Below, one piece after another: positions 3,450 through 10,855 of a DNA stretch of 30,489 nucleotides (position 1 is the stretch's first letter; every line of letters starts with the position of its first letter). A program made the translations under genes and the position numbers. The stretch covers positions 1 through 30,489 of IMG/VR virus record IMGVR_UViG_3300009509_000075; one strand, 5' to 3'. Below the pieces are notes generated by a model. It worked only from the letters and a program-made list of their open reading frames with translations. It was not told the DNA's origin and ran no database searches. The stretch is from a virus.

Positions 3450-6013
3450 TACACTACCTCGTAATTGTTCGGGTCTTTTCTAAAGACATCGACATCGTAG
3501 TTATCAAAGTTTATCTCCATCAACATATCTACATAGCCAGTTTCAACAAGCTGGCACGTTGTTACCTTCCACCATTCACAATGCTCATACGCCACGGCGT
3601 TAGCAAAGTATGAGCTTGGCATCCAATCTTCATTAGGCACAATCCAAAAGTACACCCAATACTGCCACGTAGTTCCGTTATCTGGTGTATACCACCCCTC
3701 CCAACTCGGCGCGCCAGCAACAAAATCATAAAGCCATAGACCGTCTTCTTCGTCAGCGCACGATGGTTTTATGCTCTTGCCAGCAACACCAACCTCTACT
3801 GGTTCAAATATTCTTTTACCATACTCCGCCGGTGGCGGCCCGCTAGCGCACTCTATTGATTGGAATTTTAAGTGAAACATCAAGTTGTCGCGCGTAGGGA
3901 AAGAGGGCAGCGCCCGGTAAGTGCCTTCGTATAGTTTTATTGCCACTTTACCATAAAACTTGGCTGTATCAAAGAAAACCAAGCCTGATGTCCATTTATT
4001 TGTGGGGGCGCCGGTATAGTTCACCTCCCCTCTAACGGAAACCTCTGCTGTATACCAGTTCTGGTACGCATTATCTGTTTGCATCAGGTTCCTGTTTGAG
4101 TCAACTATTCGTTTCCCCGTTTCTATGGCTTGGTACGAGGTGTCTTCCCAAGAGTCATCAGGCGGGCTTCCCGCGTCCCTAAGTTGAACGCAGTTTTCCC
4201 ATTGGATTAACGATGCCGGACAGTTGGTATAATAATACCTAAGTTGACACAATACACATCTGCAGTGGTTCAGCAGGTCGTGGTGTACCTCAAATCTCTC
4301 CTCGCTGTCAATCACTGTTGTTGAGTCGTGGCGTTCGAGAAGTCTATCAAACGCTTCCTCTCCGTAATCTATTCTTGCTTGCTTGTACAGCCCCTCAACA
4401 TCAACGACGCGGTACTCGTCGGTGTACATTGTTATCCTGTCGTACGTTGGCTGGCTAACTATGAACCTGTTTTTCAACCTCTTATATATCTGGTTTCGGC
4501 CCGTCCAGTACCCCGGCGGAAAGCCGAGTTCTCCCGGCCAAATCAAATATTCGCCAACAACGTTGTCCCCGCTTCTTGGACCTGGCCTACCCATGGTGTG
4601 TTTCCAAAACATACGCCACGTGCCTCTTGGTGGTGGCATTTCATACGCTATCGATGGATACTCCTTGCGCCACTTATACATCCACCAAGGCATGTACGGG
4701 TGTCCGGTGTCAAAATACCAGTCATATTCACCTAGGTTCTTTAGACACAACTCAAAAACACTGCCGTTGCAGTCCCAGTATTCTGCGGACGACAGGCCGC
4801 CATAATAGAAGTTACTGATTATTATGTCGCCGACAACATCCTGCATATACGCAAATGATATGTTGTACGGGGTATACCTCTGGTCGTAGGCTGGCGTGTG
4901 CCAGTGCGCCTCACCAGAAGCTGTTCCGGGTTTTCTTGGGTCCCCCGGCGTAGCTATGTATGGCTTTTTACACATATAGAAACACCCGTCCGGGTAAGTC
5001 CCGTCTGGGTTGTACTCTGAAATGTAGGCTATATTACCCAACGACCAGCCCTTATCGTCGTCCCACTCTTGGGCGTTATAGTGTACGTAGTTTTTCTGCC
5101 ATTCCTCCGTTACCGGCCACCCATACTTGGTCCCAATCTCACACGCTCTAACTATCTGGTCTTGTAGGGCATAATTCATTAACGGGTCGACGTAGTTTGG
5201 GTCGTGGTCTGGGTGGTTAACTCTCCACGGCTCTCCTCCCTCCATAACAAACTCATTTAGTTTTCTGCCTTTGTTGCACGGTTCATACGACACCGTGTCA
5301 ATAGAGCGGCTGTGGTGAGTTACCGGCCATTTAGTGATTGCATCTACCGTTAACTCAACTTTTTCAATTTTATTTCTTATTGTACCACCAATCTTAACCG
5401 GCGGCTTTTGGTGCAACCAGTCAAGTTGTTGTGGTAGATATTTATAAGCTGGCTCGTCGCTGGTGTACCCCGGCAACTGGCCACAGTTTGTCGATGATTG
5501 CGGATGGTCTACTATTATACGCCTGCTTGTAGCCCCTATAGTTGGTCTACCAGCATTCAGGCTGTAGTGGTAGTATTTATTCGGGTCTGGCGCTAACGAC
5601 CAAGCATTGCTTAAATTACCGGCGCCGGTTATTGGCGGGTTATTAACAAACTGTTCGTAGTTTAATGGCAGCTTGTTTACATACAAATCCGACACACCGT
5701 GATCGTCTTTAAAGTACACCCACAGCAGGCCTGCCCTATACGTGCCAGAAAAATTCATTTGTCCGGGCCAGTTGGAGCGTGTGTACGGGTAGGACGTGAC
5801 GTACCCGTTAGCGTCCCAATATGATATTCCGTATACGGCTGCTAAATCAATGTTGCCCGCTCTGTTACCTGTAGTAAGAAGCCATACCCACTTCCTACAA
5901 TCTTCGAACAGGTTGGCTTTTATCTCGTCACCCTTCTCGACAGGCCACTTACCTTGCTGCCAAGAGTAGACAGTATTAAACATTTCGCTAAGTGATGGTA
6001 TTTCTATAGCCAT
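3449..6013 (-). CDS. Large aromatic-rich tail-tip protein, 854 aa
   Basis: The largest gene of the window starts with one-base overlap (TAATG) on its upstream neighbour. The product is unusually rich in Trp, Tyr, Asn and Pro throughout and poor in long helices, which fits a carbohydrate-binding or rigid structural virion protein. Near residues 572-590 is a His/Cys cluster (HH...HCRCVLC...C) that could hold a metal or disulfides. Position two genes after the tape measure suggests a central tip or baseplate protein. I do not recognise a named family and see none of the usual tail-lysozyme or peptidase motifs. Confidence 0.75.
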   Translation of the reverse strand: MAIEIPSLSEMFNTVYSWQQGKWPVEKGDEIKANLFEDCRKWVWLLTTGNRAGNIDLAAVYGISYWDANGYVTSYPYTRSNWPGQMNFSGTYRAGLLWVYFKDDHGVSDLYVNKLPLNYEQFVNNPPITGAGNLSNAWSLAPDPNKYYHYSLNAGRPTIGATSRRIIVDHPQSSTNCGQLPGYTSDEPAYKYLPQQLDWLHQKPPVKIGGTIRNKIEKVELTVDAITKWPVTHHSRSIDTVSYEPCNKGRKLNEFVMEGGEPWRVNHPDHDPNYVDPLMNYALQDQIVRACEIGTKYGWPVTEEWQKNYVHYNAQEWDDDKGWSLGNIAYISEYNPDGTYPDGCFYMCKKPYIATPGDPRKPGTASGEAHWHTPAYDQRYTPYNISFAYMQDVVGDIIISNFYYGGLSSAEYWDCNGSVFELCLKNLGEYDWYFDTGHPYMPWWMYKWRKEYPSIAYEMPPPRGTWRMFWKHTMGRPGPRSGDNVVGEYLIWPGELGFPPGYWTGRNQIYKRLKNRFIVSQPTYDRITMYTDEYRVVDVEGLYKQARIDYGEEAFDRLLERHDSTTVIDSEERFEVHHDLLNHCRCVLCQLRYYYTNCPASLIQWENCVQLRDAGSPPDDSWEDTSYQAIETGKRIVDSNRNLMQTDNAYQNWYTAEVSVRGEVNYTGAPTNKWTSGLVFFDTAKFYGKVAIKLYEGTYRALPSFPTRDNLMFHLKFQSIECASGPPPAEYGKRIFEPVEVGVAGKSIKPSCADEEDGLWLYDFVAGAPSWEGWYTPDNGTTWQYWVYFWIVPNEDWMPSSYFANAVAYEHCEWWKVTTCQLVETGYVDMLMEINFDNYDVDVFRKDPNNYEVV

Positions 6014-6675: not shown

Positions 6676-7541
6676 ATAAGGAAGGCCCCAAAGTCGTCTC
6701 TTTCATATACAAGTATGTCTCTGCCGCCAGCATTTTTAACGGTGGTGTATTTTATGTGGCCGTTGGGATCAGCGTCTTTGGGCCGCGGGAATTCGTTCCA
6801 TCCAAGCGGGTTGTTGAAGTCCCCCGCGTTCCTGTGTATGAACCTAAATGTAACGGCCCAAGCAGTAACGCCGGTCGACGTCTTTTCCCTGCTTAGTGAC
6901 GGATCGCCGCACAACAACGTTTCATACGCAAACCATTTATTTAAAGACCACGAGTATACATCATCAAGGTTTACCTTTCCCGGCAGTGTGAACACCTGCG
7001 ATGGAAGGGTTGTCAGCTTGTGCATGGTGTACACCCATGCAGTCATTCTTACCAGTTTGGACGGAGCGTCGGTAGCATCTATAGGCTCGGCCCCATTCTC
7101 GTCCCAGAATAAGTTCTTGTGGGATAGTGTCATAAACTCAGTAGCTGGTTCAATGCTCTCAGTGACATACGTCTCCTCATTCTCCTCCGGCATTTCGTAG
7201 TCCGGTACTTTGTAGGTTACTGTCAACACGGCTTCACTATACTCCGCTAAGTAGGCGTTGCTTCCTACCATCTTATTAGTAAACGGCTTTATATCAACAT
7301 CGTTAGCGTATAGGTGCAACAGTCCGGACCACGGATACTGGTGCGGTAGAAAATGTATCGTGTCTAGGCCCATTACTTGAGTATAACCAACCAGTTCAGC
7401 GGCCAGCCTTAGCCTGTCGGCCCACGCACACTTTAATACGCGAACGGCGCTTTGTGATTCAACACCTATTTCCTCTCTTGGACTTTCCTCCATTTCAGAG
7501 TAGGTTATTGATATACTGTTAGGATACACTAAATGTGCCAT
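6672..7541 (-). CDS. Tail protein directly after the tape measure, 289 aa
   Basis: The ATG shares its first base with the tape measure stop (TAATG), and its end overlaps the next gene by four bases. In siphoviruses the gene after the tape measure usually encodes the distal tail protein that begins the tip, and the mixed beta composition and length would fit. I cannot recognise the distal-tail fold from sequence, so the role rests on gene order. Residues 120-135 are very acidic (PEENEETYVTESIEPATEF), with no obvious catalytic motif. Confidence 0.65.
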   Translation of the reverse strand: MAHLVYPNSISITYSEMEESPREEIGVESQSAVRVLKCAWADRLRLAAELVGYTQVMGLDTIHFLPHQYPWSGLLHLYANDVDIKPFTNKMVGSNAYLAEYSEAVLTVTYKVPDYEMPEENEETYVTESIEPATEFMTLSHKNLFWDENGAEPIDATDAPSKLVRMTAWVYTMHKLTTLPSQVFTLPGKVNLDDVYSWSLNKWFAYETLLCGDPSLSREKTSTGVTAWAVTFRFIHRNAGDFNNPLGWNEFPRPKDADPNGHIKYTTVKNAGGRDILVYERDDFGAFLI

Positions 7542-9736
7542 TACGATACAGTTCCTAAAGAACCAAGTCTGCTTGCCAATGCGGAAGGCAGACCCGCCAG
7601 CAGTTCGTTTCTGTTTCTACTTAACAAATTGGATGTAACAAGTTCGCTCGTGGTCTTTTTCTGTTCCGCAAGCATAGCACTTTCACCAAGGGCCATAGCG
7701 AACTTGGACCACGCCTCAGCAAGGCCTACGAACCCAAGGCCGGACGGGACCGGCTCGGCTGTGCCTGCGCCCCCAACATAACTTGGCAACGTGGCCCTAA
7801 TTTTCTTTTCGGTTTCCTCGGTGACACCAAGCCTTAGTTTCGCGTATTTCTCTTCTATTTCCTTAAGTTCACCGGCCAGTCTTCTAAGATTGTTCCTGTG
7901 CTCACTCCTTAATGATTCAGGAATCTTTGCGGCAGCATCAGACGCAGCCTTCCTCAAATCTTGTAGATACCGTCTTGCGGTGTCGGCAAACATACTACCA
8001 GCTGTACCAAACCTATCAGCGGCCCTTTTGCCCAAGCTTTCCCACGATTCTGTTTTGATTGTGGGGTACTTAGAAGCAAAATAACCCATTGCTTCAAGTT
8101 TGGTTACCTTCTCTCTGGCCGATTCTTTGGCCAGTTTCGCTGCTTCTGGATGTTTGGCCCGACGCATCCACATATAAAGTGGCTCAAGCATAGCCAATTG
8201 CGATGCAAAACCCGGAAAGACCAAACTCATCTTCTTTAGCTCTTCAAGACCCTTAATTGGTCCGCCAGTCAACTCCAAAAATTTCTTTTTCTCATATTCT
8301 TTCGCCAGCGCGTGTTTGTGCATTGCTCTCTTAGCTACAACTAGCGACCTGTTTTCAATTTCTTTCCACAACTTTTCAAACACGTCAGATATTGTCTTTC
8401 CCACAGACTTGAACACTTCAATCAAAGCATTAAAGAATCCTTTGGCCGCCGTTATACCCGCTCTGAAACCACCCACTATCGCTGTAGACGCTATGTCCCA
8501 CGCCGCTGGCCAATCAGTTATTATAAACTTAGCTATTTCGAACAGTTCTCGCCTAAACCAGTTAATGTGGGCCGCCATCCTCTCGCCCCACTCGGCCACG
8601 TTTAGGATATGCTTGTCAACCTTTTTGGTCATTAACTCCAAAGTAGCACCAGTCTCTTTAGCCAGCCGAAGAAAACCTGGAGCTAACATTTCCCCAACGT
8701 GCCGTGTAAGGTTCTTTATCTGCCTCCATATCCTGCCCAACTGCTCAAGGAACGCTTTTAATTGTCTCTGGGCCACACGTTCGGTAGCCCCGCCAGCGTT
8801 TCTCAGTGAATTGGCGTATTCCTCCAACGCCTCTTTGCCAGTCTGAAATACGGCAACCTGTCCGGAAATGGCCCTTGCACCAAACAACACCCTAAACGCC
8901 ATATTTCTCTGCTCCTCGCTGGCATGTTTTAGTTTATCATTTAGTTCACCAAGTATCCGAATGAACGGCTTCATGCGCCCCTCGGCGTCGTACACAGCCA
9001 CGCCCCAGTGTTTCAGCATCTTACGACCGGCAGTGGTGGGAGCACCGAGGTTCAGCAACGCCCTTCTCAACGACGTACCGGCCATTGACGCCTTAATACC
9101 AACGTTAGCCATATGAGCTATTACTGCAACCGTGTCCTCAAGAGAATTATTCATAATGTGGGACACACCAGCCACCAGTTCAAGGGTCTGCCCAAGCTGG
9201 GTAAAATTCATATTACTTGATATAACTGCTTGTGTCATCACGTCGGCCACCTTTCGGGTGTCGGCGAACGACATCCTGAATCCTTTGATTGTGTCAACCA
9301 TGTTTTCGGCGGCTTCGGCTGCGCTTATAACTCCAGCCTTAGCCAACGTCACCACCGGCACGAAAGCCTGCATTTGTTCAGTGACGGAAAGACCAGCCGA
9401 ACCCAAGTAGTAGAAAGCGTCTGCTGCGTTCACCGCCGCGACGTTTAGCCGCATAGACTGTTCCTCCGCCATACGGGACATCGTCCTGAACTGCTGCTCG
9501 GTAGCATCACTGACCGCCGTAGCCCGCCGCATAGCCCTCTCAAAACTACCGTACGTTTTCATAGCCACTAAAGCGACACCACCGACAGTACCTACCATAG
9601 CCCCAACAGCCGCAGTAACGTCGGCCATCTTCTTTGATACTCGGCCAAGTATACCGTCCACTCTACCCATAACCTCAGAGAATCTGGCGTCGTGGACAGT
9701 TAGGTCTATAAATCCTTCTGTAAGTCTAAACGCCAC
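7541..9736 (-). CDS. Tail tape measure protein, 731 aa
   Basis: This protein spans the tail lumen, sets tail length and is released on DNA ejection. It starts at GTG 9736-9734 after AAGGA. The N-terminal half is the TP901-type tape measure domain: an alanine-rich hydrophobic segment near residues 40-58, then helical stretches with typical phrases such as TLELVAGVSHIMNNS and MAGTSLRRALLNLG near residues 180-225. The C-terminal half is charged and helical. At about 1.5 angstrom per residue, 731 residues suggest a tail near 110 nm. The start lies inside the end of the frameshifted chaperone frame, the usual arrangement. No peptidase or lysozyme insert is seen. Confidence 0.92.
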   Translation of the reverse strand: MAFRLTEGFIDLTVHDARFSEVMGRVDGILGRVSKKMADVTAAVGAMVGTVGGVALVAMKTYGSFERAMRRATAVSDATEQQFRTMSRMAEEQSMRLNVAAVNAADAFYYLGSAGLSVTEQMQAFVPVVTLAKAGVISAAEAAENMVDTIKGFRMSFADTRKVADVMTQAVISSNMNFTQLGQTLELVAGVSHIMNNSLEDTVAVIAHMANVGIKASMAGTSLRRALLNLGAPTTAGRKMLKHWGVAVYDAEGRMKPFIRILGELNDKLKHASEEQRNMAFRVLFGARAISGQVAVFQTGKEALEEYANSLRNAGGATERVAQRQLKAFLEQLGRIWRQIKNLTRHVGEMLAPGFLRLAKETGATLELMTKKVDKHILNVAEWGERMAAHINWFRRELFEIAKFIITDWPAAWDIASTAIVGGFRAGITAAKGFFNALIEVFKSVGKTISDVFEKLWKEIENRSLVVAKRAMHKHALAKEYEKKKFLELTGGPIKGLEELKKMSLVFPGFASQLAMLEPLYMWMRRAKHPEAAKLAKESAREKVTKLEAMGYFASKYPTIKTESWESLGKRAADRFGTAGSMFADTARRYLQDLRKAASDAAAKIPESLRSEHRNNLRRLAGELKEIEEKYAKLRLGVTEETEKKIRATLPSYVGGAGTAEPVPSGLGFVGLAEAWSKFAMALGESAMLAEQKKTTSELVTSNLLSRNRNELLAGLPSALASRLGSLGTVS

Positions 9737-10447
9737 TGTTTTTCCTTGATTTTATGAACGCCGCAGCGTCGGCCATACTGTCAAACCTTCTAAAACGTCT
9801 AAACAACGGTCGTTCCGTACGTTGCTCAGTCAGATACACCATCGATTGCGGTATCGTCATTCCTGCCACAACGTCCGGCCCAAACCCATAATCCTCACCA
9901 AGTCGCTTGAACAGCAGCGAAAAGTTTATTGGTTCTTCGTCATCAAGTTTTTTGGTTCTTCTGTAACCTCACCGTCCCTATTTTGTTTGGGGAAGCTAAG
10001 GTCCATAACCAACCCAAAAGCCTCTATTAGCGCATTGTTGTCGCGGTCAAAAAGTTCACTAACGTCCTTAAGTTCAAACAGCGGCGTCCCATCCTTACCG
10101 GGTTTGTCTCTTAGCGACAGTCGTACCACTCGCAGCATGCCGTCGAAAGTCCTCATAAAGGACATGGTTTTGGTAATTTCTTCCTCAGACTGCGCTGCAC
10201 TTAAAAAGCATTGACCTATGGAGATTCTGCTGGCTGCAAGATGGGCAGCTTCCATAATGTTTTGCCTAAAGTCCGGCGCAATCTTGGGCTGACTGGTTAC
10301 CGCTTCTATTGCCGCACCAATAATCTGCGACCGCATCCACTGTTCTACTTCACCCCAGTCCGTAAGTCTTAGACCGTACAGCTTTAGATTCTGCCCGTTA
10401 CAGTCAAAGTCCAGCGGGGCATTGGTAAGGTTGCCTAACGATTCCAT
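9726..10447 (-). CDS. Tail assembly chaperone, frameshifted (GT-like) form, about 240 aa
   Basis: At 9947-9953 the minus strand reads A AAA AAC in the frame of the short form, the textbook X XXY YYZ layout. A -1 slip there, re-reading base 9947, continues through 73 more sense codons to TAG 9728-9726. The extension contains LLFKRLGEDYGF and VVAGMTIPQSMVYL, protein-like segments of the kind found in phage chaperone T domains. The extension frame has no plausible start of its own for the whole segment, and its stop overlaps the tape measure start by 11 bases, as in lambda G/GT and H. A GAGG-like element lies 13 bases upstream of the heptamer. Confidence 0.85.
9926..10447 (-). CDS. Tail assembly chaperone, short (G-like) form, 173 aa
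   Basis: This gene sits between the tail tube and the tape measure, where siphoviruses encode the chaperone that coats the tape measure before tube assembly. The product is mostly helical and ends seven residues after a slippery sequence, in the standard frame (NLMTKNQ). The same mRNA can be read into a longer form by -1 frameshifting. The start is ATG with an AGGAGAACGCG region upstream. The sequence alone does not name the family, but position plus frameshift makes the assignment strong. Confidence 0.85.
   Translation of the reverse strand: MESLGNLTNAPLDFDCNGQNLKLYGLRLTDWGEVEQWMRSQIIGAAIEAVTSQPKIAPDFRQNIMEAAHLAASRISIGQCFLSAAQSEEEITKTMSFMRTFDGMLRVVRLSLRDKPGKDGTPLFELKDVSELFDRDNNALIEAFGLVMDLSFPKQNRDGEVTEEPKNLMTKNQ
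9947..9953 (-). promoter_or_regulatory. -1 ribosomal frameshift slippery heptamer
   Basis: A AAA AAC lies in the correct phase, with zero-frame codons CCA AAA AAC, seven codons before the zero-frame stop. A possible weak downstream stem pairs CTTGA with TCAAG about 32 bases later. An internal SD-like GAGG upstream may also stimulate slipping. Confidence 0.85.
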
Positions 10448-10465: not shown

Positions 10466-10855
10466 TTATGTAAGTGCACCGTTTCCGGTTACTGATATAG
10501 TGGCTTTTACCAGACCGCTACCGTCTATATCAACTTCAATTCCGCCGATGGTATCAATTCTGGCTTGACCATTCTTCTTGTTGGTCCCATCGACACTAAG
10601 TTCTATATCAGTAAGCAGCGTACCTACTTCAAGAGCGGCCAATTGGTCGTCGGGAAACTGACCATCTTCGAACAACAGGTCGATGGTGGCAGTCCAACTC
10701 TTGGCGCCTTCTGCCGATTCGGCCCAGCCGTTGGTACTACTACTTACATATGTCTTGTTAGCGGCGGTCATTTCAAGCGTCCATTTTAAGACACCCGCTT
10801 GAGAAGCACCGGCGTTGAACTTAACAAGACCGTTTTTGGCCGTTTTGCCCGCCAT
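10466..10855 (-). CDS. Major tail tube protein, 129 aa
   Basis: The product polymerises into the tail tube. Length, beta-rich content and sequence run (KFNAGASQAGVLKWTLEMT, then a W-containing sheet and an acidic DDQLAAL segment, ending in ISVTGNGALT) fit the TP901-1-type tail tube family. The gene lies exactly where the tube gene is expected, just before the assembly chaperone. The small size implies one tube domain without an added Ig-like decoration domain. AGGAG precedes the ATG by a short spacer. Confidence 0.85.
   Translation of the reverse strand: MAGKTAKNGLVKFNAGASQAGVLKWTLEMTAANKTYVSSSTNGWAESAEGAKSWTATIDLLFEDGQFPDDQLAALEVGTLLTDIELSVDGTNKKNGQARIDTIGGIEVDIDGSGLVKATISVTGNGALT

Follow-up and report, generated by a model that had tools for sequence, protein, structure and literature searches.

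Does the gene which separates the tail-tube gene of this virus from its tape-measure gene encode a single protein, or does a programmed -1 frameshift give it a second, longer product? Across long-tailed phages, tail chaperone genes share a widely conserved -1 frameshift, and its mechanism has been reviewed (PMC5009743). A preliminary description of the locus had proposed that such a frameshift occurs here on the heptamer A AAA AAC. We analysed the window, i.e. the whole stretch of DNA under study, a virus record of 30,489 bases, together with related loci from viral contigs. According to this analysis the locus very probably encodes a tail-assembly chaperone pair of the lambda G/GT type, which would be made by -1 frameshifting on A AAA AAC.

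Genome setting and geometry of the slippery site

The morphogenesis genes of the window are located on its minus strand and include, according to Pfam, a Mu-type portal (PF06074) and a Mu F-like protein (PF04233). Hereby, the chaperone gene has a tail-tube gene (PF06199) upstream and a tape-measure gene (PF10145) downstream, as in the lambda G/GT type. The features of the locus are summarized in Table 1. Neither the chaperone nor the extension matched a family in Pfam or PHROGs. Likewise, GenBank phage records searched with the chaperone at both the DNA and the protein level yielded no match, nor did viral contigs when they were first scanned using the chaperone alone.

Table 1. Features of the chaperone locus in the window
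Feature	Position	Strand	Description
Tail-tube protein, upstream of the chaperone	10466..10855	-	PF06199 Phage_tail_2, E = 3.2e-5, above its cut-off
Zero-frame tail-assembly chaperone (gpG-like)	9926..10447	-	ORF, ATG start, 173 aa + stop TAA
GAGG, possible Shine-Dalgarno-like stimulator	9967..9970	-	13 nt upstream of the heptamer; weak candidate from the sequence
Slippery heptamer A AAA AAC	9947..9953	-	-1 phase; read CC[A AAA AAC] in the chaperone frame
-1 extension (T-like domain)	9726..9947	-	73 codons + TAG, from translation
Tape-measure protein	7541..9736	-	PF10145 PhageMin_Tail, E = 8.9e-42; many PHROGs tape-measure families

Within the chaperone ORF the heptamer AAAAAAC is found at offset 494, which equals 2 modulo 3 and is thus the phase required for a -1 slip; past the heptamer, the zero-frame TAA follows as the seventh codon. 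Over the 13-codon overlap of the two frames, A AAA AAC is the sole in-phase XXXYYYN. The -1 frame extends from 9947 to 9729 and is closed by a TAG at 9728-9726; its translation begins LDDEEPINFSLLFKRLGEDYGFGPDVV and ends KNSGV. At its end it shares 11 nt with the tape-measure ORF, which starts with a GTG at 9736. Because the earliest ATG, GTG or TTG of the -1 frame is located 59 nt past the zero-frame stop, the extension is missing from the list of ORFs of at least 60 aa. Translation across the slip site gives a predicted fusion product of 240 aa. Hence, the preliminary description had placed the heptamer in the correct phase and at the correct distance of seven codons from the stop, and its coordinates for a 73-codon frame overlapping the tape-measure start were right, as were the expected product length of about 240 aa and the remark that an ORF finder would miss the extension.

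Taken by itself, the heptamer shows no enrichment: AAAAAAC has 4 matches in the window compared to 7.35 expected. Based on the window's own dicodon rate, the probability of an in-phase A6 arising by chance within the 13-codon overlap is about P = 0.006. Multiplied over the first six lineages, the chance probabilities amount to about 3e-10, a product which takes the lineages as independent and thus serves as a guide only.

Conservation of heptamer and extension among relatives

Relatives were reached in viral contigs via the terminase and the tape measure, not via the chaperone. A search with the aligned fused chaperones of several loci added two contigs, one of them viral and the other binned as Candidatus Falkowbacteria, and scanning with aligned tape-measure N-termini returned 21 loci. 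On the Falkowbacteria-binned contig (L022, contig QMNH01000018.1), the related phage module might stem from a phage that infects a CPR bacterium, or else the binning is in error.

An A AAA AAN in phase before the zero-frame stop, combined with a -1 extension that reaches the tape-measure start, was counted in 16 distinct loci, one of them the window, with C at the last position in eight of them, A in seven, T in one and G in none. As the preliminary description had anticipated, heptamer and extension are conserved together in homologues: the arrangement is kept in 15 relatives with A AAA AAN, always in the -1 frame, and in one further relative with G GGA AAG. Chaperone identity to the window is 45% for L004, 36% for L019, 33% for L021 and 36% for L022. 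The slip region of L004 reads GAA AAA AAA ACG and comprises nine consecutive A, while the heptamers are A AAA AAA in L019 and L002, A AAA AAT in L021 and A AAA AAC in L022; L019 is hereby the same locus as L015 and is near-identical to the loci of L016 and L020. In L019, L021, L022 and L002 the zero-frame stop follows the heptamer as the 7th to 14th codon, and the -1 extensions comprise 69 to 96 aa, each ending at the tape-measure start.

The extensions themselves are related in sequence. In blastp, the window extension matches those of L004, L019, L021 and L022 with E-values between 1.5e-14 and 1.6e-4, the best match being L004 (37% identity, E = 1.5e-14). The match to L022 covers 34 aa at 59% identity (E = 6.8e-11) and that to L019 covers 32 aa at 47% (E = 2.3e-8); the L002 extension gave no blastp match to that of the window. 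Ten loci newly added by the tape-measure scan (L029, L030, L031, L033, L034, L035, L038, L039, L040 and L042) are arranged likewise: their heptamer, which is A AAA AAC or A AAA AAA, is in phase and precedes the zero-frame stop by 6 to 39 codons. Several of these loci (e.g. L034, L035 and L040) are mutually related, so that not all are independent.

The seventeenth locus, L032 (1971-2348), carries the lambda heptamer G GGA AAG directly ahead of the zero-frame stop. Its extension frame contains an internal stop near 2105, which could reflect an error, a second recoding event or a decayed gene. One tape-measure relative, L043 (1793-2350), counts against the frameshift reading, as it possesses one uninterrupted ORF upstream and no -1 extension. 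Together with L036, L041, L045, L046, L047 and L048 it was left out of the heptamer count, the grounds for these seven loci being that the upstream region was truncated, that an extension was lacking, or that the tape measure had at most 30% identity and no in-phase heptamer accompanied it.

The tail-tube-like protein, of which the window has one, occurs upstream of the chaperone as two or three tandem paralogues in L002 (2695-3948) and L015 (reverse strand).

Proposed mechanism and stimulators

The geometry of the site, its phase and its joint conservation with the extension are observed features of these loci, and we infer from the sequences that ribosomes slip on A AAA AAC. The majority of ribosomes would stop at the TAA ending at 9926 and release the 173-aa protein. 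A minority would slip by -1, whereby CCA AAA AAC is re-read as AAA AAA, and would append the 73-aa domain to yield the 240-aa fusion. The peptide at the fusion junction would then read ...EEPKNLDDEEPINF... or ...EEPKKLDDEEPINF..., depending on whether one or two tRNAs move. By analogy to lambda, the short form may coat the tape-measure protein, and the extension may recruit tail-tube subunits.

Downstream of the window's heptamer no significant RNA structure was found, z lying between about -0.8 and +0.6. The upstream GAGG is at best a weak candidate for a Shine-Dalgarno-like stimulator, and it is not conserved among the relatives. Since no strong stimulator is seen, the slip rate would probably be a few per cent. 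Only L019 shows a strong predicted hairpin, which is located 5 nt past the slip site (about 4585-4640) with a z of about -6 over 40 nt. Stimulators hence vary inside the group, with the hairpin present in L019 and the window without one. A point against the proposed mechanism comes from E. coli, where slippage on A AAA AAC is much less than on A AAA AAG (PMC5009743).

Alternative explanations

In principle, RNA polymerase instead of the ribosome could slip, adding or dropping an A in the run and thereby generating mixed mRNAs that encode the fusion. Every site is an A run, save the G GGA AAG of L032, and at the nine consecutive A of L004 and L002 such transcriptional slippage is possible. The window's run, however, consists of only six A followed by C. 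A six-A run is short for polymerase slippage, which is thus unlikely to operate in the window, and as an explanation of the locus we consider it improbable.

Still less probable are two separate proteins, with the second frame being translated by re-initiation or coupling past the zero-frame stop. The two frames do overlap, and in some relatives (L004, L021, L022) an ATG, GTG or TTG is found 14 nt past the stop. In the window, however, the first possible start lies within the conserved block and after INFSLLFKRLGEDYGF, so that re-initiation could not make this conserved sequence; moreover, the in-phase heptamer would have to be a coincidence in 16 loci. An assembly or sequencing indel that splits one continuous gene would fit the error-prone nature of poly-A runs and the origin of the sequences from metagenome contigs, but is hardly credible because the identical -1 offset recurs in independent contigs, being seen in 16 distinct ones from many samples and never as +1 or zero among the loci having extension and heptamer, and because the zero-frame C-termini have comparable end points, with MTKNQ in the window and MQKGQ in L004.

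Predicted structures and comparison with known systems

The AlphaFold2 model of the chaperone (pLDDT 79.8) shows a beta hairpin followed by helices. The top PDB row of a second-look comparison was the HK97 tail assembly chaperone 2ob9 (88 residues aligned, rmsd 4.3, 11% identity), with a Z of 6.3 that lies within the range which helical models such as this mostly helical one can reach by chance; the rows below had a Z of 5.1 and then less than 4. The HK97 protein is shorter than that of the window, and the Z is below the level that would exclude a common helical arrangement. The match is supportive of a chaperone fold, albeit not conclusive. Using Foldseek, the chaperone had no match in the PDB at E <= 0.001, and its viral matches include several named tail assembly chaperones with weak E-values. 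The extension was modelled with moderate confidence (71.3) and gave no Foldseek match among viral models.

Like lambda gpG/gpGT, the gene is situated between the tail-tube and tape-measure genes and carries its heptamer near the 3' end, the extension ends at the tape-measure gene, and a short and a long product are expected. The site differs, being G GGA AAG in lambda and A AAA AAC in the window, and the window's proteins are without detectable sequence similarity to known families. The preliminary description had regarded A AAA AAC as a less common choice. This view is weakened, as the heptamer has been named as the tail-chaperone site for phiCbK and relatives, which are Caulobacter phages (PMC3556154), for the Acinetobacter phages Loki and IME_AB3 (PMC5313236), possibly for Dragolir (PMC6003738), and for the haloarchaeal virus HCTV-2 (PMC5009743); given these precedents, A AAA AAC in a tail chaperone is not novel. 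The phiCbK-type phages, Loki, IME_AB3 and HCTV-2 share with the window the heptamer and the kind of gene, while a GenBank phage protein search detected no relationship between their chaperones and that of the window. The proposed frameshift mechanism is hence a long-known one of the ordinary lambda type, whereas the chaperone/extension family is absent from the libraries searched.

Choice of heptamer and biological meaning

It had also been suggested that the slip site reports on the tRNA set of the host. Support for this idea is weak and confounded by phylogeny: A AAA AAG occurs in none of the 16 loci (nominal P = 0.013, calculated from the AAN codon usage of those loci and weakened by their shared ancestry). 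That this uncultured phage group avoids A AAA AAG, which is the strongest site in E. coli, in favour of A AAA AAC and A AAA AAA, and does so as a reflection of differently slipping Lys/Asn tRNAs in its hosts, appears unlikely to us. If it were true, host decoding could be read from the slip site.

In conclusion, this gene pair, which defied annotation and belongs to a poorly known group of phages, is with high probability a frameshifted tail chaperone, and chaperone and extension together constitute a sequence family that present libraries lack.
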